Origin: Saprospiraceae bacterium
Lineage (GTDB): Bacteria > Bacteroidota > Bacteroidia > Chitinophagales > Saprospiraceae
Direction: 5' to 3'
NCBI GenBank assembly: GCA_017987975.1
Contig: JAGNSQ010000002.1
Span: forward strand, 7,968-71,967
DNA length: 64,000 bases
Shown here: in pieces, positions 1 through 64,000 of the stretch
Layout: every line of letters begins with the position of its first letter
How positions within the stretch are numbered: the stretch's first letter is position 1
Made by a program: the position numbers and the translations under genes
Notes under the pieces: generated by a model
What the model was told of the DNA's origin: nothing
Databases searched by the model: none
Seen by the model: only the letters and a program-made list of their open reading frames with translations

Positions 1-803
1 CTGAGAGCCAATGTTTTGAGTCCATTGTTGAGCAGCCATGCATCCCAGGCATTACAGGTACCGCCCATTAGTTTTAAAGTAGATTTGACAGCTGCACTGT
101 GAGCTTTGTTTCTTCCCAGGATAATACCGGCCAAAGAATTGCCATGTCCATTTAGGTATTTGGTTGCCGAATGGATGACAAAATCAATTCCAAATAGAAA
201 AGGTTGTTGTAAATAAGGAGTGCAAAAAGTATTATCAATGATTGTAAATATTTTGTGCTTTTGAGCTAAGCTTGCAATAGCAGAAAGATCTACACAGTCC
301 AGTGTAGGGTTTGATGGGGTTTCCAGATAAATGGCCTTAATGCCAGGGTTGCTGATTATAATTTTCTCCAATTCCTCTATTTGGTCAAAGCGGGCAAAAA
401 CAGGGCTTATACCATGTCTGGACAACACCTTGTTAAACAATTCAGTGGTGCCTCCATAGATATTGGCTTGGGTCAAAACAGCATCGCCTGCATTCAGAAT
501 TGCGTACAGCAGAGTACTGATAGCCGACATGCCACTCGAAGTGAGGAATGCAAAAGGCATGACATCACAACCCTGACCTTCCATGGCTGCTATTTTTTCA
601 GCTACTGTATCGATGGTGGGATTGCCATATCGGGAATAGACATGGCCGCTTTTATTCCCCTTAAAAATTTCGATACTTTCTTCCACTTCATCAAAAACAA
701 AGGAAGAAGTAGCATAAATGGGAAGTTGATGAGGAGGGGTAGTTTTTGTATCTTTATGCTCGATTACACATAAAGTTTTAAAATTGATGTTGCAGTTATT
801 CAT
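1..803 (-). CDS. Trans-sulfuration PLP enzyme (cystathionine gamma-synthase / methionine gamma-lyase family), 3' end outside window
   Basis: This gene reads toward the left window edge, so only the first 267 residues are seen. They have the Cys/Met-metabolism PLP fold: the phosphate-binding YSRYGNPT motif, an SSGMSAI stretch, the YLETPSNPT segment, and SATKYLNGHGNS carrying the lysine expected to hold PLP. The family makes or cleaves gamma-substituted amino acids (cystathionine, O-acetylhomoserine, methionine). The exact substrate cannot be set without the C-terminal half. I chose the ATG at 803 because the frame stays open to there and the residues before the conserved PPHQLPIYATSSF block are needed for a normal N-terminus. 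This start overlaps the start of the divergent barrel gene by about 17 bases, so one of the two true starts may lie further in. Confidence 0.85.
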   Translation of the reverse strand, partial: MNNCNINFKTLCVIEHKDTKTTPPHQLPIYATSSFVFDEVEESIEIFKGNKSGHVYSRYGNPTIDTVAEKIAAMEGQGCDVMPFAFLTSSGMSAISTLLYAILNAGDAVLTQANIYGGTTELFNKVLSRHGISPVFARFDQIEELEKIIISNPGIKAIYLETPSNPTLDCVDLSAIASLAQKHKIFTIIDNTFCTPYLQQPFLFGIDFVIHSATKYLNGHGNSLAGIILGRNKAHSAAVKSTLKLMGGTCNAWDAWLLNNGLKTLAL

Positions 804-28486: not shown

Positions 28487-29515
28487 CTATGCAAACATTA
28501 GATTACAGCCCCTGATATCGGCCTGATCAAGCCTTCCCTGGACCAAAAAATTTTCGTTTTTCAGGTCAATTCCCAGGTCTTCGGTAGCTATAAAACTACA
28601 AGTTTCGATATTGGCCAGATCTATTATGTGAATTATGCCTGTTTTGCCCTGCTTCTCCAGTTCAAATGGGTCTGTTGCCTCCCTGATTGAAATTTTCATG
28701 GTCTGGGATGGTGTAAAAATGCCATCACCTTTTGACCACGCTTGGGACAACAATTCTGTCATACCATATTCAGAATGAACACTTTGAATATTAAATCCCT
28801 TTTTAATATGAAAATGCAATGCTTCTCTCGTCATTTCTTCCCTCCTGCCTTTCATCCCCCCGGTTTCCATAACTATCAATTCAGGAAAATCCATTTGAAA
28901 TTCTGCTACAAAGTCGAGCAAAGCAAAACTGACCCCAAACAGAATGGTAGGAGTGCCAGCCATTTTATTTGCCTGTAATATATGATAGACCTTTTTGGTA
29001 TCGTGAAGAAAAAAACCACTTTGTTGATTTCCACTTTTTGAAATAAAAAACCTTACCATTTCGACAAGAGAAGAATGTTGCCTCTCCAGGTAGTGGGGCA
29101 AAAGGGCCAGGATGCTGTAGTTTGATAGGCTACCATATTGATTTTCAAAACCTTTCATTGACATTTGCAGGTAAAACTCCACATCTTTCAAGTAATGACG
29201 TGAGTTGATAGTGCCGGTTGTACCGCTTGACTCAAAAAAGAAAGTTGGTAAGGATGCCGAAGTTGTTACAATATTCGATTTAAATGCAGAAATGGGTAAA
29301 TAAAAAGGTGGTTTTCTCCAGGGTGCGGTAGCTGTTATAGAATCACAAAATTGCTGATAAATGGGGTTATAGCGGTACTGGTATTGGAAAATTTCATTTG
29401 CTATATCATCAAACTCAGAAGGCTTCATTTGGGCCACCTTCGATTTAAGATGATGTTCAGCTTGCCTTTCTTCGGTTAAACTCAATGAATAAAAATTTGT
29501 CTGCAAAAATACCAC
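28487..29515 (-). CDS. LuxE-like acyl-protein synthetase/acyl transferase
   Basis: The product has up to 342 residues and belongs to the acyl-protein synthetase (LuxE) family, which activates fatty acids with ATP and holds them as acyl-enzyme. Visible motifs are FFFESSGTTGTINSRHY (adenylation P-loop-like, about residues 91-107), HSEYGMTELLSQAW near 240 and the C-terminal FLVQGRLDQADIRGCNLM. The start is uncertain: GTG 29515, TTG 29485 or ATG 29428 are all in frame. A -7-like TATTTTTG at 29511-29504 lies inside the longest version and would favour TTG 29485. The LuxC-like partner is at 2631-3662. Confidence 0.8.
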   Translation of the reverse strand: MVFLQTNFYSLSLTEERQAEHHLKSKVAQMKPSEFDDIANEIFQYQYRYNPIYQQFCDSITATAPWRKPPFYLPISAFKSNIVTTSASLPTFFFESSGTTGTINSRHYLKDVEFYLQMSMKGFENQYGSLSNYSILALLPHYLERQHSSLVEMVRFFISKSGNQQSGFFLHDTKKVYHILQANKMAGTPTILFGVSFALLDFVAEFQMDFPELIVMETGGMKGRREEMTREALHFHIKKGFNIQSVHSEYGMTELLSQAWSKGDGIFTPSQTMKISIREATDPFELEKQGKTGIIHIIDLANIETCSFIATEDLGIDLKNENFLVQGRLDQADIRGCNLMFA

Positions 29516-55086: not shown

Positions 55087-56361
55087 TTAGACAAGGATGC
55101 CCTTGTATGCTTCGTATTCTTTGAGAATGTACTTCTGTAGTTTTTCAGAATTATCGAATTGATCAAATATTTCCTGCAGTTTTGATCGCTCAGAGCTGGA
55201 GGTATTGACGTAATTTTCAATATCTGTTTTTGTTATCTTTTCCTTGCTGAGTATAATAAGTCTTTCTACAACGTTGCGCAATTCGCGAATGTTGCCAGTC
55301 CAATTGTATTGCTGCAACAGTTTTAAGGCTGCTGCATCAATGGTCTTTTTGTTCATGCCATACTCATCGCAAATCCTGACCATAAAATGTTCAACCAGAG
55401 CCGGTATATCTTCTTTTCGCTCATTGAGAGATGGCACCTCTATGACAATAACGGCAAGTCTGTGATAAAGATCCTCTCTGAATAATCCTTTGTTGATTTC
55501 TGCTCTCAAATCCTTGTTGGTAGCAGCTATGACCCGGACGTCGACCGACAATTCCTTTTCACCCCCTACCCTGGTTATCCTGCTTTCCTGCAAGGCCCTT
55601 AATACTTTGGCCTGGGCAGAAAGGCTCATATCTCCTATTTCGTCCAAAAAGAGGGTTCCTCCATGGGCTTGTTCAAACTTGCCCAATCGCATTTTGTGTG
55701 CTGAGGTAAAAGACCCCTTTTCATGGCCAAAAAGTTCACTTTCAATTAATTCCGACGGAATGGCAGCGCAGTTGACTTCCACTATGGGACCATCGGCGCG
55801 GTTAGATTTGTCGTGGATCCAGCGGGCCACCAGCTCTTTACCGGTTCCGTTTTTTCCATTGATAAGAACTCTCGCGTCTGTGGGTGCTATTCTGTCAACC
55901 GTTTGTTTGATCAATTCCAGGGCCTTGCTCTCACCTATCATCTCTTGTACCATAGACTTGTGGACCCTCTTCTGCAACACCTTTTTTTCTGTGATGAGCG
56001 AAGATTTGTCCATGGCATTACGGATGGTGATCAGCAGCCTGTTGAGATCGGGGGGTTTCTGAATAAAATCAAAAGCTCCCTTTTTCACAGCTTCTACTGC
56101 GGTATCAATATTGGCGTGGCCCGAAATCATTACAATTGGCACATCCGGACAAAGGATCTGGATGCGTTCAATGGCTTCCATGCCGTCCATTTTGGGCATC
56201 TTGATGTCCAGAATGATTACATCAAAGGCCTGCTGTTTTACCTTGACAAGTGCATCCAGACCATCAGGCGACTCATCTACCTGATAGCTCTCAAACTCAA
56301 GGATCTCTCTGAGGGTCCTTCGGATGCTCGCATCATCGTCAACAATTAATATTCTTGCCAT
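55087..56361 (-). CDS. NtrC-type response regulator (receiver plus AAA+), lacking a C-terminal Fis HTH
   Basis: The 424-residue protein has a receiver domain with phospho-acceptor Asp52 (ILDIKMPKMDG) and the acidic pair VDDD at residues 7-10. An AAA+ domain follows, with Walker A NGKNGTGKE (168-176), Walker B GGTLFLDEIGDM and the arginine-finger LYHRLAVIVIEVPSL region. The sigma-54 contact loop reads GSFTSA (216-221) instead of GAFTGA. After the AAA+ lid the chain ends with LQEIFDQFDNSEKLQKYILKE; no Fis-type helix-turn-helix is visible. It may act without direct DNA binding. It is monocistronic by the terminator after it. A partner histidine kinase is not in the window. Confidence 0.88.
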   Translation of the reverse strand: MARILIVDDDASIRRTLREILEFESYQVDESPDGLDALVKVKQQAFDVIILDIKMPKMDGMEAIERIQILCPDVPIVMISGHANIDTAVEAVKKGAFDFIQKPPDLNRLLITIRNAMDKSSLITEKKVLQKRVHKSMVQEMIGESKALELIKQTVDRIAPTDARVLINGKNGTGKELVARWIHDKSNRADGPIVEVNCAAIPSELIESELFGHEKGSFTSAHKMRLGKFEQAHGGTLFLDEIGDMSLSAQAKVLRALQESRITRVGGEKELSVDVRVIAATNKDLRAEINKGLFREDLYHRLAVIVIEVPSLNERKEDIPALVEHFMVRICDEYGMNKKTIDAAALKLLQQYNWTGNIRELRNVVERLIILSKEKITKTDIENYVNTSSSERSKLQEIFDQFDNSEKLQKYILKEYEAYKGILV

Positions 56362-56494
56362 GGGCTAATACAGACTTTAGTAATTATCAGGTAAAATTAC
56401 ATTAATTTTTTCAATAATATGAAAAGCGCTGAAAAAAAAATGCGCTTCAGTCATCCGGGGATCAAAAAGAGGCTAAAATGCAGATTCTCCATAA

Positions 56495-56518
56495 CATATT
56501 AGTTTTTAGTGTAATATG
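56495..56518. promoter_or_regulatory. Candidate operator, exact CATATTA-N10-TAATATG
   Basis: The perfect inverted repeat can be extended by one base on each side (ACATATTA ... TAATATGT), with a 10-base spacer. Centre-to-centre arm spacing (17 bases) is close to 1.6 helical turns. Confidence 0.55.
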
Positions 56519-56614
56519 TGTCAAAAAAAAGTAAAAAAAAAGTGGCCCCATAAAATCGCTGCTTATTTCTGAGTAAAAACTGCTTACATATTATCAATTT
56601 TCATAATGTCTTTT

Positions 56615-56638
56615 CATATTAAAAATGCTACTAATATG
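56615..56638. promoter_or_regulatory. Candidate operator, exact CATATTA-N10-TAATATG
   Basis: This second exact copy, extendable to TCATATTA ... TAATATGA with a spacer of the same 10 bases in length but different sequence, shows that the arms rather than the spacer are conserved. It lies 28 bases (start to start) from the imperfect copy at 56587. Confidence 0.55.
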
Positions 56639-56761
56639 ATTTTCCTTTTGGTGTAGAATTTGGCATTAGGTATCACAAATGAGGGAAAGGTGTGTAATTC
56701 ATGTACCCAACCTGTTAAAATCATTGTAGTGAAACGAATATTACAAAAAACACAAAATTCG

Positions 56762-59700
56762 ATGAAGAACTTTTTACATTCACTGAAATCGGATCTCAGT
56801 AGAAAACACCAAAGGCCACTTTATATGGTTGCCTTGTTGTTGTGTTTAAACTGGATTACGGCATCTGCACAAGCTCCGACATTTACCCGGAATGAATGTG
56901 GGTGTATGAACAACGAGACTTCGTGGGGCAACGGCCAGTTTACTGAGACCATTACCATTACCAGTGCGCCGGGATTGACCTGGACCATTGTAGCGGCAAA
57001 TGGCCTGTACAGCACTGCCTCACCAGCTCCCCCTGCTGCACCACTTGTCATTCCGGCAGGAACGGTCATTACAGAAGGCCCCGCGGGCAGCTACGTTTTA
57101 AATGCCAGAAGAGTTGACAACTCTAATTATTCACTGATCGTGACCAACGGTACCACTGAATATACAGTCAACTCACTTCGCACTTGCCGGTATCCAAGAA
57201 ATGAAATCCTCGGAGATATCGGTGCCTGCGTTGATAGCGATAACAAGACTTATCGAATTGATGTTGCCAATAGCATGTTGCCCTCTGTTGCCTGGACAAT
57301 CAGCGGAGGAGGATCAACAGTTGGCCCTTTGACTACCAATACCCTTGTGGTCAATTGGGGAGCTGTAGTTGGCTCTTATGATGTACGGGTCAATGGTACC
57401 GCAAGAGCCTTTGCCGGACAGACATCCGGATTTTGTAATATCAGTGATACTATTACGGTAGACATTGCAGATGAGTTGCCCATTGCACTTGCCTGCAATA
57501 ACCTCATTCACCTCTCCATGAATGGCAGGTGTGAATTGAGTGTGACTCCTGAAATGGTGTTAGAAACCATTCTTTTCCCAACAACGGCTTCATCGTATGA
57601 TGTAGTGCTAAGAGATATGGAAAAGGATACCATCATACCCAATACCAGAATTTCTCAGAAATACATTGGTAAAACCATCGAAGCAAAAGTTGTACAGGAA
57701 TGTAGTACCAACTCCTGCTGGGGTTTGATCAAGTTGGAGGACAAATCAATTCCTTCACTTATTTGCAATCCGGATGTAACCATCGATTGTAATCAGTTGA
57801 CAGGGCCACAGGTCACTGGCTATCCACTTAGGCCAGACGCCATAGTCACTCCATTAACAGGGAACAAATTCCTGGTTAAAAATTTCGATTATTGTTCTGA
57901 TGTTATTTTAGAATATTATGATCAAATAACCAAAAGTGATTGTGTTGGAGATTTCAGTTCCGTGGTCACACGCACCTGGGTTGTAACTGACATTTCGGGC
58001 AACTCAAGCACTTGTTCATCTGATATTTACATTAGAAAGGCCGATAGCGCAGACATAGTATTTCCTAGTAACTGGGATGATGTTTTAGGCCCTAACCCTT
58101 CTATTCCAGCCTGTGGCAACTGGCCTAAACTGGCCAATGGTCATCCAGATCCTATTTATACCGGCAGTCCACAAGGTGTATTTTGTTTAAATGTAACCGT
58201 TGATTTCCAGGATACCAAAATACCTAAGTGTAGAGGTGATAAAACCTTCAAACTGTTGAGAAAATGGATCGTTACAGATTTGTGTAATGCTACTCAAATC
58301 ATCAGAAATCAAACCATTACCGTTATGGATAAAGATGCTCCCGTGATCGTTGCACCAGCCGATTTTACGGTAGGAACAACGGGTCTTACCTGCGCATCTC
58401 AAATAAAATTGCCACATCCTACCATTACAGATTGTAGCAACACTCAGTACTATGTATCCTACAATGTACCTGATCTAACTGGCGCTCCGTCACCGGGTCC
58501 CGGAAGTACAGATGGCGTAATTAAAAATTCAGATGGTACCTTTACCATTCAAACTCTGCCTGCAGGTGTTACTACCATTTGGGTAACTTATCTGGCAGTT
58601 GACGATTGCGACAATGCAAGCGAAGACATCACCAGAGTTGACATCAAAGATGGCACCCCTCCGGTTCCTGTTTGTGATCAATTTTCATTTGCCGGACTTA
58701 ATGATGATGGTCTTGGTTATGTAACTGTGGAATCATTGGATGATGGTTCTTGGGACAACTGTGGAATTGATTATTTGGAAGCCAGGAGAATGGAGACTTC
58801 TTCATGTAGCATCACCAATGAATGGGGACCAAAAATCAAATTCTGTTGTGAAGATGCCGGAAAATCATTCATGGTTCAATTAAGAGTGGTAGATAAAGCC
58901 GGTAATTCCAACACCTGTATGGTAGAAGTAAGAGTTCAGGACAACGTACCTCCTACCCTTACCAACTGCCCTGCAAACATTACCGTTGATTGTAACGCAG
59001 ATCTATTAAGTCTGGGTCAATATGGCAAGCCAACAGCAAGTGATGTTTGTGGAGCAAATCTTACAGAAGAAGTAAAAGACAATGGCTTTGACGACTGTGG
59101 TCGCGGATCTATTTCAAGAATTTTTACGGCTACAGACAACTTTGGTAATAAAACAACTTGTGTACAAGTGATCACAGTTAGACCTACCAATCCGTTTAAT
59201 GCCAACAACATAACCTGGCCACAGGATCATACATTTACCAATGGCTGTTTGGCCACCGGTATTGCTCCTGAAAATATGCCAGCTGGTAAACAAAAACCTA
59301 CATGGGCAACCCGTCCATGCAGTCAGATTGCCATAGAACATGAAGACATCGTTTTCCAATATGTAGAAGGATTTTGTTTCAAAGTATTGAGAAAATGGAC
59401 CGTAATCGACTGGTGCCAATTCAATCCACTGATTCCATCAGCCGGTAAGTGGACCTATACACAGGTCATCAAAGGACAAAACAATACAGCTCCTACCATT
59501 ACAAAAGGATGTCTGCCTGCAGATGTGAAGATTACCCAGGTGGACAATTGCCAGGCATTGATCGAAGCTACAGCTACTGCTACCGACGATTGTACCCAGG
59601 GTGATAAATTTGTTTGGTCGTATGTCCTGGATGTGGATAACAACGGAACTAAAGATTTTACCGGAAACACCAATACAGTAAGCAGAACAGTAAGTTTCGG

Positions 59701-61366
59701 AAAACACACCATTACCTGGACAGTAACAGACGAATGTGGAAACAGCAAAACATGCTCAAACACCTTTGAAGTAAAAGACCAGAAAAAACCAACACCTTAC
59801 TGTTTGTCAGAAATTACAACCGTAATTATGGAGCAGGATGGCACCGTTGAAATTTGGGCTTCTGATTTTAATGCTGGAAGTTATGACAACTGTTCACCCA
59901 ATCCTAATTTGAAGTATTCATTTACCAGCAATGTTTTAGACGCAGCCAGGACCTTCAGATGTGCTGACATGACAGATAATACCACAAGATTTGAATTGAA
60001 GATCTATGTAACTGACCTTGCAGGCAATCAGGACTTCTGTACAACCCACATCAACATACAGGACAATAACAATACCTGTGGATTTGGCAATATCGATGAA
60101 GGAGAAGGCGAAGGCGAAGAATCTAAAAAAGTATCGGTTTCAGGAGCCATCAGAATGGAATCAAATGAGTCCGTTGAAAATGTGGCTTTGATGTTGGAAT
60201 CACAACAACCTGAATTTCCAAAATATATTTACAGCAATGAGCAAGGTGAATATACATTTAACGACCTAATTACACAAAACGACTATACCATTACGCCATC
60301 AAAAAATGATGACTATCTTAACGGACTTTCAACCTTGGATTTAATCCTGATCCAGCGCCACATTTTAGGTGTTAAAAAACTAGAAAGTCCATACAAGATC
60401 ATTGCTTGTGACGCCAATTCTGACGACAAAGTAACGGCATCTGACCTGGTAGCATTAAGAAAACTGATCCTTGGTTTGACCGACAAACTTGCCAATAGCG
60501 ATAGCTGGAAATTTGTAGACAAATCACATGTATTTGCTGATCCAACAAAGCCATTCCCTTATCAATCCAGCATTGGAATGGGAACATTGGAACACAATGT
60601 AAGCAACGGCGACTTTGTAGCAGTTAAAGTAGGTGACATCAATGCATCCTACCAGCGCAACGCACAGTCAAATGAAGCAGAAAACAGAACAAGGACCAGC
60701 ATGATGTATGCAGCAACGGCTCTAAAAGCAGGAGAATCAATCACTGTTCCGTTTGAAGTTGCTGAAGCTAAAAACATTGCCGGCATTCAGTTTTCAATGG
60801 TGTTTGATCAGGATAAATTTGAATTCAAGGGCATCGAGCAAGGGGCTGCCAATGTAACAGAAGATGATATCTATGTTGTGGACAACACCTTACTGATGAG
60901 TTGGGCAAATAGCAAAAAAGACAACGAGGAAAACGGTAAATTATTTGGTTTGACCTTTGTGGCCAAACAGGATATTGCTGCCGGTGAGTGGTTTAACCTC
61001 AATGACAGAATGTTGAAGTCAGAAGTATATTTCAATGAAGACGAAAACATTACGGCAAGCTCAATGGATCTGGAATTGAGAGGTAAGAGCAACTATGCCA
61101 ATTCAACCTTTGAACTGTACCAAAACACACCCAATCCATTCAATCATACAACGACCATTGGCTTTACTATTCCTGAAGCAGGCGAAGTATCATTCAAAGT
61201 GTATGATTACAATGGAACCGTGTTGAAACAATTCAGAAAAAATTATGACAAAGGTTATAATACAATAGAACTCAATGTTTCTGAATTCAACAAAGCGGGC
61301 ATACTCTTTTACCAACTAGACTCAAAAACTCATTCAGCCAATAAAAAAATGATTGTTATAAAATAA
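56762..61366 (+). CDS. Giant HYR-repeat surface protein with dockerin-like, cohesin-like and T9SS domains
   Basis: The product has 1534 residues. The signal peptide (LYMVALLLCLNWITASAQA) is followed by a very cysteine-rich region of HYR/Ig-like repeats with paired motifs such as NITVDCNADL, FKVLRKWTVIDWC and KDAPVIVAPADF. An acidic GEGEGEE linker near residue 1115 leads to a carboxypeptidase-regulatory-like domain. A dockerin-like pair follows at about 1185-1242 (STLDLILIQRHILGV and ACDANSDDKVTASDLVALRK), then a cohesin-like beta domain at about 1318-1440 and a T9SS tail at about 1450-1534 (YQNTPNPFN ... KKMIVIK). It is probably a secreted, cell-surface structural or adhesive protein. ATG 56762 is chosen to give the signal peptide. 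Confidence 0.87.
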   Translation: MKNFLHSLKSDLSRKHQRPLYMVALLLCLNWITASAQAPTFTRNECGCMNNETSWGNGQFTETITITSAPGLTWTIVAANGLYSTASPAPPAAPLVIPAGTVITEGPAGSYVLNARRVDNSNYSLIVTNGTTEYTVNSLRTCRYPRNEILGDIGACVDSDNKTYRIDVANSMLPSVAWTISGGGSTVGPLTTNTLVVNWGAVVGSYDVRVNGTARAFAGQTSGFCNISDTITVDIADELPIALACNNLIHLSMNGRCELSVTPEMVLETILFPTTASSYDVVLRDMEKDTIIPNTRISQKYIGKTIEAKVVQECSTNSCWGLIKLEDKSIPSLICNPDVTIDCNQLTGPQVTGYPLRPDAIVTPLTGNKFLVKNFDYCSDVILEYYDQITKSDCVGDFSSVVTRTWVVTDISGNSSTCSSDIYIRKADSADIVFPSNWDDVLGPNPSIPACGNWPKLANGHPDPIYTGSPQGVFCLNVTVDFQDTKIPKCRGDKTFKLLRKWIVTDLCNATQIIRNQTITVMDKDAPVIVAPADFTVGTTGLTCASQIKLPHPTITDCSNTQYYVSYNVPDLTGAPSPGPGSTDGVIKNSDGTFTIQTLPAGVTTIWVTYLAVDDCDNASEDITRVDIKDGTPPVPVCDQFSFAGLNDDGLGYVTVESLDDGSWDNCGIDYLEARRMETSSCSITNEWGPKIKFCCEDAGKSFMVQLRVVDKAGNSNTCMVEVRVQDNVPPTLTNCPANITVDCNADLLSLGQYGKPTASDVCGANLTEEVKDNGFDDCGRGSISRIFTATDNFGNKTTCVQVITVRPTNPFNANNITWPQDHTFTNGCLATGIAPENMPAGKQKPTWATRPCSQIAIEHEDIVFQYVEGFCFKVLRKWTVIDWCQFNPLIPSAGKWTYTQVIKGQNNTAPTITKGCLPADVKITQVDNCQALIEATATATDDCTQGDKFVWSYVLDVDNNGTKDFTGNTNTVSRTVSFGKHTITWTVTDECGNSKTCSNTFEVKDQKKPTPYCLSEITTVIMEQDGTVEIWASDFNAGSYDNCSPNPNLKYSFTSNVLDAARTFRCADMTDNTTRFELKIYVTDLAGNQDFCTTHINIQDNNNTCGFGNIDEGEGEGEESKKVSVSGAIRMESNESVENVALMLESQQPEFPKYIYSNEQGEYTFNDLITQNDYTITPSKNDDYLNGLSTLDLILIQRHILGVKKLESPYKIIACDANSDDKVTASDLVALRKLILGLTDKLANSDSWKFVDKSHVFADPTKPFPYQSSIGMGTLEHNVSNGDFVAVKVGDINASYQRNAQSNEAENRTRTSMMYAATALKAGESITVPFEVAEAKNIAGIQFSMVFDQDKFEFKGIEQGAANVTEDDIYVVDNTLLMSWANSKKDNEENGKLFGLTFVAKQDIAAGEWFNLNDRMLKSEVYFNEDENITASSMDLELRGKSNYANSTFELYQNTPNPFNHTTTIGFTIPEAGEVSFKVYDYNGTVLKQFRKNYDKGYNTIELNVSEFNKAGILFYQLDSKTHSANKKMIVIK

Positions 61367-61477: not shown

Positions 61478-64000
61478 ATGAACAAATCCTTACTCATTCA
61501 ACAATTCAACGGTTTCATCAGCTTGAAACACCTGAGAAATTTGTTGACACTGGCCATTCTGGTTGTGATGAATACCCAGTCAAAAGCACAGACAGTGGAT
61601 TGCAACGCCATTTTAGCATGCAATGACCTTGTCCAGATTTCATTGGGTACCAACTGTACTGAAGTGGTAGTGGCAGATATGATCCTGGAAGGCCAGGCTT
61701 ATCCCAATTCGTTTTACAATGTAGTGGTATCTACTGCCAATGGAACGCCCATTACCAACAACCTGCTAACCAAAGCAAATATTGGTAAAACCTACAATGT
61801 TGTGGTAACCTTAAGCGGTTGCGACTTATCATGCTGGGGCAACATCACAGTGGAAGACAAATTGCCACCCGTGATTACCAATTGTCCAAGTGTGACCTTA
61901 CAATGTGGTCAGCCTACAACACCGGGAACTTCAGTGCCCAGGCCCTCAGCTTCAGACGCCTGTTCATCTGTAACCCTTACTTCTATTGATAAAGAAGTAG
62001 TGTCTCAGTGTAGTGCCCAGTATGTAAAAGTTATTACCAGAACCTGGACAGCTACAGACGCTTATGGCAATAAAACCACCTGTGAGCAGATCATCAACAT
62101 TACCAGGCCTACCATCGATGATGTAGTATTTCCACCCAACTATGATGATCACGACAAGCCTGTTTTTTCTTGTACAACCAACCTGAAATTATTACCAAAC
62201 GGTGCTCCGCACCCTGATGTAACAGGTTACCCGGGAGGAACCGATTGTCCGAACATCATGTATTTTTACAATGATGTTATTTTCCCTATCTGCGGTGCTT
62301 CTAAAAAAGTGTTGCGTCAGTGGACCGTTATTGACTGGTGTACTGGAAGAGATACCGTGAGTGCGCAGATCATCAAAATAGTTGATACAGACCCTCCGGT
62401 ATGTGTTTCTCCTCCTGATTTTGCATTCAATGTTACAACCGATGAGGGCAAATGCACAGGTACTTTTGTTGTGCCGGCACCCAATGTTGTATTTGAATGC
62501 AGCAACTGGGATTACATTGTAGGCTATAAGCTGAGAGATGCCAATGGACAGCCTTTTGTAAATCCTGTTTACGACAATGTCAAAAAAACAACCCGTGCTG
62601 ATGGCAGTTACTTCTATACCATCAGTGGTTTGCCAGCTGACACTTCATGGATAGTATACACCATCACTGATGGTTGTGGAAATAGCACCCAATGTTTTAC
62701 AGAGGTAATTGTAAAAGATACCGAGGCACCTACCCCTGTTTGTGAAGGCTTTACCGTAGTATCATTAGAAGATGCCGGATGGGCAGATTTATTTGCTACC
62801 TCCATAGATGACGGAAGCTCTGACAACTGTGGAATTGAAAAATTTGAAATCAGAAGACAGGTAAATAATTGTAACAGACCAGAAGACCTGTTATTTAAAA
62901 ATAAGGTCAACTTCTGTTGCGAAGACGTGAGCAGTGATCCTACTGTATACCAAAAAGTGGTATTAAGAGTGTATGACAAAGCCGGAAATTTCGCTGACTG
63001 TGTAGCCAACGTAAAAACACAGGATAAAAAACCACCGGTTATCACCGTACCTCCTGCCATCACCATTGATTGCGATGTTGATTATAAAAACGTGGCAAAT
63101 ACAGGTGGATCTGCAACAGCAGTAGACAATTGTAGTGTAACGATTACATCAACAGATGCTGGTACATTAAAGTGTGGTTTAGGTACCATCACCAGAACAT
63201 GGAGAGCTACTGACAAACAAGGATTGACTGATTCAAAAACACAGATCATTGTAATTAAAGATTCAAACCCATTTGATGCAACAGACATTGTATGGCCTTT
63301 AGACCTCGAAATCAATGGTTGTGATAAAGCAGATGCAACTCCAGATCTTTTAAACAGCAAACCAACCTATACCAATTCAAACTGTGCAGATATTGCCATC
63401 TCATGGGATGATGAGGTATTCAGTATACCTGGTGCATGTCTGAAAATATTGAGAACATGGAGAGTCGTAAACTGGTGCGATGCCAATCCACAAAATCCAC
63501 AGTTCATTACCTATGTACAAAAAATTGTTTTGAACAACTCTGAAAGACCTGTTTTTGTAGCAGGTTGCAGTAACAAGACTATTAACTCAATCAATAGTGA
63601 TTGTGAAGAATACGTTGAGCACTCAGTTACAGCTACAGATGATTGTACAGCTCCTGCCTTGTTGAGATATACCTGGCAGTACGATGAAGACAACAATGGT
63701 ACGATAGATCAGACAGGTACAGGATCATTTTATGCAAGGGTTTACCCTGCAGGTAGACACAAGATGACTTTTACCGTAAAAGATTTGTGTGAAAACACAA
63801 CCAGCTGTTCTTATACCTTCCATGTGAAGGACAACAAACCACCTACCCCTATCTGTAATTCAGAAGTAGTATGGGTGTTGGATGAAGCAGGAAAAGCAGA
63901 AGTATGGGCAAGCGACTTTGACCTAAAATCAGAAGACCTTTGCGATGGCGATGATTTGAAATTCTCTTTCAATGCGAGCGGAAGTCAACCTGCCAAAACC
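61478..64000 (+). CDS. Second giant HYR-repeat surface protein, 3' end outside window
   Basis: The frame is open from ATG 61478 to the window end (841 residues seen). The signal peptide ends near LVVMNTQSKAQ. The cysteine-rich HYR-like repeats have the same order as the upstream paralogue: LPPVITNCPSVTLQC, LRQWTVIDWCTGRD, CCEDVSSDP, RTWRVVNWCDANPQNP and PPTPICNSEVVWVLDEAGKAE with WASDF. The last pair corresponds to PTPYCLSEI ... IWASDF at about 59.8 kb of the first gene, so if collinear the gene should go on with linker, dockerin-like and T9SS parts. It was probably produced by tandem duplication followed by divergence. Confidence 0.88.
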   Translation, partial: MNKSLLIQQFNGFISLKHLRNLLTLAILVVMNTQSKAQTVDCNAILACNDLVQISLGTNCTEVVVADMILEGQAYPNSFYNVVVSTANGTPITNNLLTKANIGKTYNVVVTLSGCDLSCWGNITVEDKLPPVITNCPSVTLQCGQPTTPGTSVPRPSASDACSSVTLTSIDKEVVSQCSAQYVKVITRTWTATDAYGNKTTCEQIINITRPTIDDVVFPPNYDDHDKPVFSCTTNLKLLPNGAPHPDVTGYPGGTDCPNIMYFYNDVIFPICGASKKVLRQWTVIDWCTGRDTVSAQIIKIVDTDPPVCVSPPDFAFNVTTDEGKCTGTFVVPAPNVVFECSNWDYIVGYKLRDANGQPFVNPVYDNVKKTTRADGSYFYTISGLPADTSWIVYTITDGCGNSTQCFTEVIVKDTEAPTPVCEGFTVVSLEDAGWADLFATSIDDGSSDNCGIEKFEIRRQVNNCNRPEDLLFKNKVNFCCEDVSSDPTVYQKVVLRVYDKAGNFADCVANVKTQDKKPPVITVPPAITIDCDVDYKNVANTGGSATAVDNCSVTITSTDAGTLKCGLGTITRTWRATDKQGLTDSKTQIIVIKDSNPFDATDIVWPLDLEINGCDKADATPDLLNSKPTYTNSNCADIAISWDDEVFSIPGACLKILRTWRVVNWCDANPQNPQFITYVQKIVLNNSERPVFVAGCSNKTINSINSDCEEYVEHSVTATDDCTAPALLRYTWQYDEDNNGTIDQTGTGSFYARVYPAGRHKMTFTVKDLCENTTSCSYTFHVKDNKPPTPICNSEVVWVLDEAGKAEVWASDFDLKSEDLCDGDDLKFSFNASGSQPAKT

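Follow-up and report, generated by a model that had tools for sequence, protein, structure and literature searches.

Here we analyse an inverted repeat, CATATTA-N10-TAATATG (the dyad), which occurs in four copies in a stretch of 64,000 nucleotides from a Saprospiraceae bacterium (contig JAGNSQ010000002.1, positions 7,968 to 71,967), called the window throughout. The copies are located in an interval of 402 bp with 30% G+C, between the ATG of a divergent response regulator (56361, minus strand) and the ATG of a giant secreted protein (56762). The response regulator (55087..56361, minus strand) is shown by Pfam, translation and orthologues to belong to the NtrC family, with a receiver and a sigma-54 AAA+ domain. 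On the other side, the giant protein (56762..61366, plus strand) has HYR, cohesin-like and CarboxypepD_reg domains and a sorting tail of the type IX secretion system (T9SS), according to Pfam and sequence, and its open reading frame (ORF) is open from a TTG at 56660. A second giant HYR protein in the ORF list (61478..64000, plus strand) runs past the window end, with a weak HYR_4C match and a tail match just under the cut-off, and could be co-transcribed with the first.

The four copies, none of which is assigned a strand, are as follows in order along the window. Copy 1 (56398..56421), TACATTA-N10-TAATATG, has two mismatches and lies 37 bp from the response-regulator start codon; copy 2 (56495..56518) is exact, CATATTA-GTTTTTAGTG-TAATATG; copy 3 (56587..56610), CATATTA-N10-TAATGTC, again has two mismatches; and copy 4 (56615..56638), the nearest to the giant gene, is exact, CATATTA-AAAATGCTAC-TAATATG. 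An initial annotation, made from the sequence alone, had named the same four starts and the same division into two exact and two imperfect copies, and our pattern search finds all of them there. It had also held the array to be beyond chance, which our simulations confirm: 4 copies with at most two mismatches are seen in the 402-bp region against 0.013 expected, and 0 of 4000 first-order Markov simulations reach even two. In the sister species G002 all four copies are kept, arms included, with one spacer change in copy 1, identical arms in copy 2, and copies 3 and 4 identical throughout. Since the stretches between the copies have diverged, this conservation supports the two imperfect copies as well. 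The spacings between copy starts are 97, 92 and 28, which show no common helical period. We consider both flanking genes, that of the response regulator and that of the giant surface protein, to be probable targets, which the array would control together.

On the whole, the dyad is far from its random frequency in the genome of the window (3.63 Mb), as shown by a pattern search with the same pattern read backwards as a control that keeps the base composition. Exact copies number 8 against 0 in the control, those with at most one mismatch 19 against 2, and those with at most two mismatches 62 against 37. Because of these reversed-pattern counts, exact and one-mismatch copies are taken as nearly all signal, and more than half of the two-mismatch copies elsewhere as noise. 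The window itself has one further one-mismatch dyad at 28787-28810, within an ORF of 342 amino acids (28487-29515, minus strand), which is probably a chance match. Among 61 Saprospiraceae genomes, 26 carry exact copies, with 105 copies in total against 3 controls; the genera with three or more number at least 13. In 244 genomes from other families of the same class, there are 4 exact copies and 11 controls. The 10-base spacer is fixed, as the initial annotation had stated: in unselected data, N10 accounts for 61 of the 74 CATATTA-N(2-22)-TAATATG matches listed for seven genomes, with the remaining 13 spread over other lengths. In 30 family genomes that have no exact copy, among them several A/T-rich ones (32-37% G+C), the dyad is missing in front of xerC, where the best match has 3 mismatches. 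The dyad is therefore confined to a part of Saprospiraceae, and a loss of the motif by drift in G+C content alone is rejected, because A/T-rich genomes also lack it at xerC.

Clustering is found for 21 of 121 exact sites: within 250 bp of each there is another copy with no more than two mismatches. Among these sites, arrays of four copies are found only in the window and at its counterpart in G002, and are the densest found. Pairs of exact dyads 123-124 bp apart, with different spacers, precede a cation-diffusion-facilitator-like gene in two species (L002, 1501/1625; L161, 2061/2184), and the two exact copies of the window are 120 bp apart. The dyad is also seen in repeated elements. At contig ends of genome G061 (L388:1-420, L389, L390), a one-mismatch dyad has a constant place in a multi-copy element, before a transposase-like ORF (DPRGKQGKRYP) with an ISAs1-type resemblance by eye, which may be an insertion sequence carrying a host operator. 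In genome G062 (L391-L393), another repeat present at many contig ends also bears a one-mismatch dyad.

We then present the genes behind 217 exact or one-mismatch sites in 31 genomes, where genes are called as longest ORFs, so that start codons are approximate. Only 6 of the 217 sites lie within ORFs of at least 100 amino acids, so that the element is intergenic, and the flanking genes are divergent for 95 sites, tandem for 105 and convergent for 7. The largest cluster of targets is the HYR-type giant surface proteins, with 26 sites in 9 genera. Besides these, the dyad stands in front of a xerC/D recombinase in 7 genera, a glucosaminidase and the protein-isoaspartate methyltransferase Pcm in 5 each, the ribonucleotide reductase small chain (nrdB) and purD/ruvA in 4 each, ftsK and mraZ in 3 each, and parE, murA, PBP1, rpoN and an NtrC-type response regulator in 2 each, the last being found in the other genus at L141 (G050). 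Amidase_3 enzymes and NlpC/P60 are also among the recurrent targets, while ssb, ddl, dprA and rmuC have one observation each and, except ddl, are named by eye. The domains of representative targets are confirmed by Pfam. With the HYR proteins left out, pairs of genera have 111 target groups in common against about 13 expected from a random-promoter model with 2000 groups, a crude model which ignores shared ancestry. The initial annotation had linked the dyad to an unknown regulator of the giant secreted proteins or of the divergent response regulator. A dyad specific to secreted giants is not supported: most recurrent targets are genes of division, cell wall and DNA metabolism, and in the genome of the window only 2 of 124 Por_Secre_tail genes have an exact or one-mismatch dyad in front, which shows that it is not a general operator of T9SS cargo. 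What stands of the proposed operator array is its operator-type character, intergenic, conserved and located before both flanking genes.

The position of the dyad relative to the promoter is also well defined. The -7 box of Bacteroidetes has the consensus TAnnTTTG, and we orient each dyad by its downstream gene and measure the TA of this box from the dyad start. TAnnTTTG occurs 23 times at +24..29 against 1.4 expected and 21 times at +34..38 against 1.1 expected, with only 5 occurrences at +30..33 and one at +39..45. About 10 bp, one helical turn, separates the two classes, and orthologues tend to hold their class, for example the amidase at +25..27 in five genomes of the same genus and in G052, and ftsK at +35..37 in three genomes. 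In both registers the dyad sits immediately before the -7 box and over the -33 region, which makes the core promoter its probable point of action. Within the +34..38 class, a run rich in T, in some cases TTTG, occupies the -33 box position inside the spacer, and no -33 box is recognisable in the +24..29 class. In 15 further cases, at +20, the right arm itself forms part of the box (TATGTTTG). The initial annotation had placed the last copy of the window just upstream of a -7-like box, and a candidate, TA-GAA-TTTG (56654..56662, plus strand), whose role we infer from its sequence and from the register elsewhere, is indeed present after copy 4; it is one base longer than the consensus, and its TA at +39 from the copy start is near the +34..38 class but outside it. 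Shortly after copy 4, the stretch 56659-56666, TTTGGCAT, resembles a sigma-54 -24 element, with an unfit -12 position (CA for GC).

The dyad is thus conserved, intergenic, of fixed spacing and linked to promoters, and fits the general form of a bacterial dyad operator; its extended form is about ACATATTA-yAAAwwTTTr-TAATATGT, of about 26 bp. The existence of the element and its conservation, along with the genes that recur beside it and its register, come directly from computation; that a protein binds it, that there is one such protein and which sign its regulation has are steps that we add. We consider it quite probable, on the evidence of sequence comparison, that the dyad is the operator of one dedicated dimeric regulator in a branch of Saprospiraceae, acting at the core promoter and controlling about 15-30 promoters per genome. 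Such a regulator would control chromosome segregation and DNA metabolism (xerC, ftsK, parE, ruvA, nrdB), the synthesis and cleavage of the cell wall (murA, PBP1, Amidase_3, glucosaminidase, NlpC/P60 and the mraZ cluster), and sigma-54 signalling (the NtrC-type response regulator and rpoN). Part of the giant HYR surface proteins would belong to its targets too. As for the sign of regulation, activation is slightly favoured because the placement is phased and the -33 box is weak or missing; at roughly even chances, the bound protein would be an activator that replaces the -33 contact. A much wider proposal, which we put forward tentatively and regard as rather doubtful, is a master regulator of division and envelope growth specific to Saprospiraceae, a functional counterpart of CtrA or WalR in Bacteroidota, which would activate via the -33 stand-in and tie division both to sigma-54 signalling and to the presentation of giant T9SS adhesins at the surface.

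Several observations weigh against a single dedicated regulator. Genera differ in their target sets, many targets have been observed only once, and some chance matches are present in the one-mismatch set (about 2 of 19 in the genome of the window, by the control). Many sites, those of the window among them, have no consensus -7 box in register. That a single regulator serves all sites is an argument of parsimony, and a fixed register does not exclude a repressor. Moreover, no binder was found among the candidates examined, namely the response regulator, HrcA, Crp/Fnr, NarL-type and LexA proteins. That the divergent response regulator itself binds the dyad is very unlikely, because its translation stops 30 residues past the AAA+ lid and Pfam finds no helix-turn-helix. 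Its orthologues have 60-70% identity across Bacteroidetes; most of those inspected have no Fis-type helix-turn-helix, which is present in a few from other families (L042, L045, L055). HrcA is rejected, as hrcA is found in 0 of 61 family genomes while the search controls are positive. For Crp/Fnr, the dyad before its gene is kept within one genus only and not in the examined orthologues of other genera, and the half-sites would be expected 10-11 bp apart, whereas the arm centres of the dyad are 17 bp apart. The NarL-type regulator L277, with a dyad in G032, has the best orthologues in motif-positive genomes, which may be due to phylogeny alone, and no copy with at most two mismatches is found at nine orthologues in motif-positive genomes, autoregulation being here a suggestive sign and not strictly required. 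About 40-90 bp upstream of the NarL/FixJ-type response-regulator gene (G000:C171:6718-7392 and orthologues, L348-L357), a conserved -24/-12 element of the sigma-54 type is present in about nine genera of Saprospiraceae, TTTGGCAY-N3..4-TTTTGC in most. Finally, the Bacteroidetes LexA motif, GGA-N5-TCC or CTAA-N5-TTAG (PMC8565304), differs from the dyad.

The strongest rival differs in sign only: the operator and regulon would be the same, and the binder a repressor blocking RNA polymerase at the -33/-7 region. Proteins binding short palindromes that overlap promoters are most often repressors, the dyad does overlap the core promoter, and the +34..38 class keeps a T-rich, -33-like stretch in its spacer with TTTG in some cases; yet two registers separated by a helical turn are not needed for simple occlusion, and a -33 box cannot be recognised in the +24..29 class. 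We give this rival a substantial chance, somewhat short of even. The same register bears on the idea that the dyad serves chromosome organisation, as a site for a segregation or nucleoid protein for instance. Such a site would explain an intergenic position and the presence of ftsK, xerC, parE and ruvA among the targets, but not a fixed distance to the -7 box, a location in front of genes and the mere 7 convergent flanks, and we hold it improbable.

The remaining rivals have smaller weight. That the divergent NtrC-family protein uses the dyad to activate sigma-54 promoters from upstream would suit its own gene having sites in front in two genera, and rpoN being a target in two genera. Sigma-54 activator sites are, however, expected 80-150 bp upstream of -24/-12 boxes, and the dyads stand at -7-box promoters; together with the missing helix-turn-helix beyond the AAA+ lid, and with an orthologue in Saprospiraceae, L041, which is 73% identical and has no dyad in its 9.2-kb locus, this makes the idea very improbable. 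A role in RNA, as a hairpin of the 5' untranslated region, is about as improbable: the arms are able to pair and many copies have a start codon within 60 bp, but at least 44 dyads are upstream of a -7 box and hence outside that transcript, which makes an RNA-level role very unlikely. As for chance palindromes in A/T-rich DNA, the low G+C content of the region would be the reason to suspect them, and the nearly empty reversed control of the same composition, the spacer, the position and the conservation at orthologues refute them with a probability left that is practically negligible. The operator of one dedicated regulator, whichever its sign, is the reading that we prefer.

We found no description of the motif or the regulon in the open-access literature, most subscription papers being outside that search. 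As a kind, it would be an ordinary dyad operator, and the novelty lies in the regulon and in a placement that apparently covers the -33 position. To our knowledge, no regulator of transcription has been established in Bacteroidota for cell division and wall remodelling, and none was found in the literature on Saprospiraceae, which are abundant in activated sludge. An operator defined this precisely, and with targets that are orthologous across many genera, is a direct handle for finding the regulator, and gives an entry to how division, chromosome segregation and the display of surface proteins are linked.

Several known systems come close to the dyad. The CIRCE element of HrcA, TTAGCACTC-N9-GAGTGCTAA, has a similar geometry of long arms and a wide spacer, but its sequence and targets differ. 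MraZ autoregulation takes place at the dcw cluster, and mraZ promoters bear the dyad in three genera; the known sites of MraZ, however, are direct repeats of the TGGG type, while the arms of the dyad are inverted and contain no TGGG. The operators of the non-canonical LexA (S24/HTH_3) of Bacteroidetes are likewise palindromes before DNA-metabolism genes in this phylum (PMC8565304). Compared with LexA, the target set of the dyad is one of division and cell wall, and not the classical SOS set. In function, and in function only, the nearest resemblance is to the WalR (YycF) regulon of Firmicutes, which likewise joins cell-wall hydrolases (amidases, glucosaminidases, NlpC/P60) with division; WalR is an OmpR-type protein with direct repeats, whereas here we find an inverted repeat of 24-26 bp in Bacteroidota, with xerC, nrdB and ruvA among its targets.
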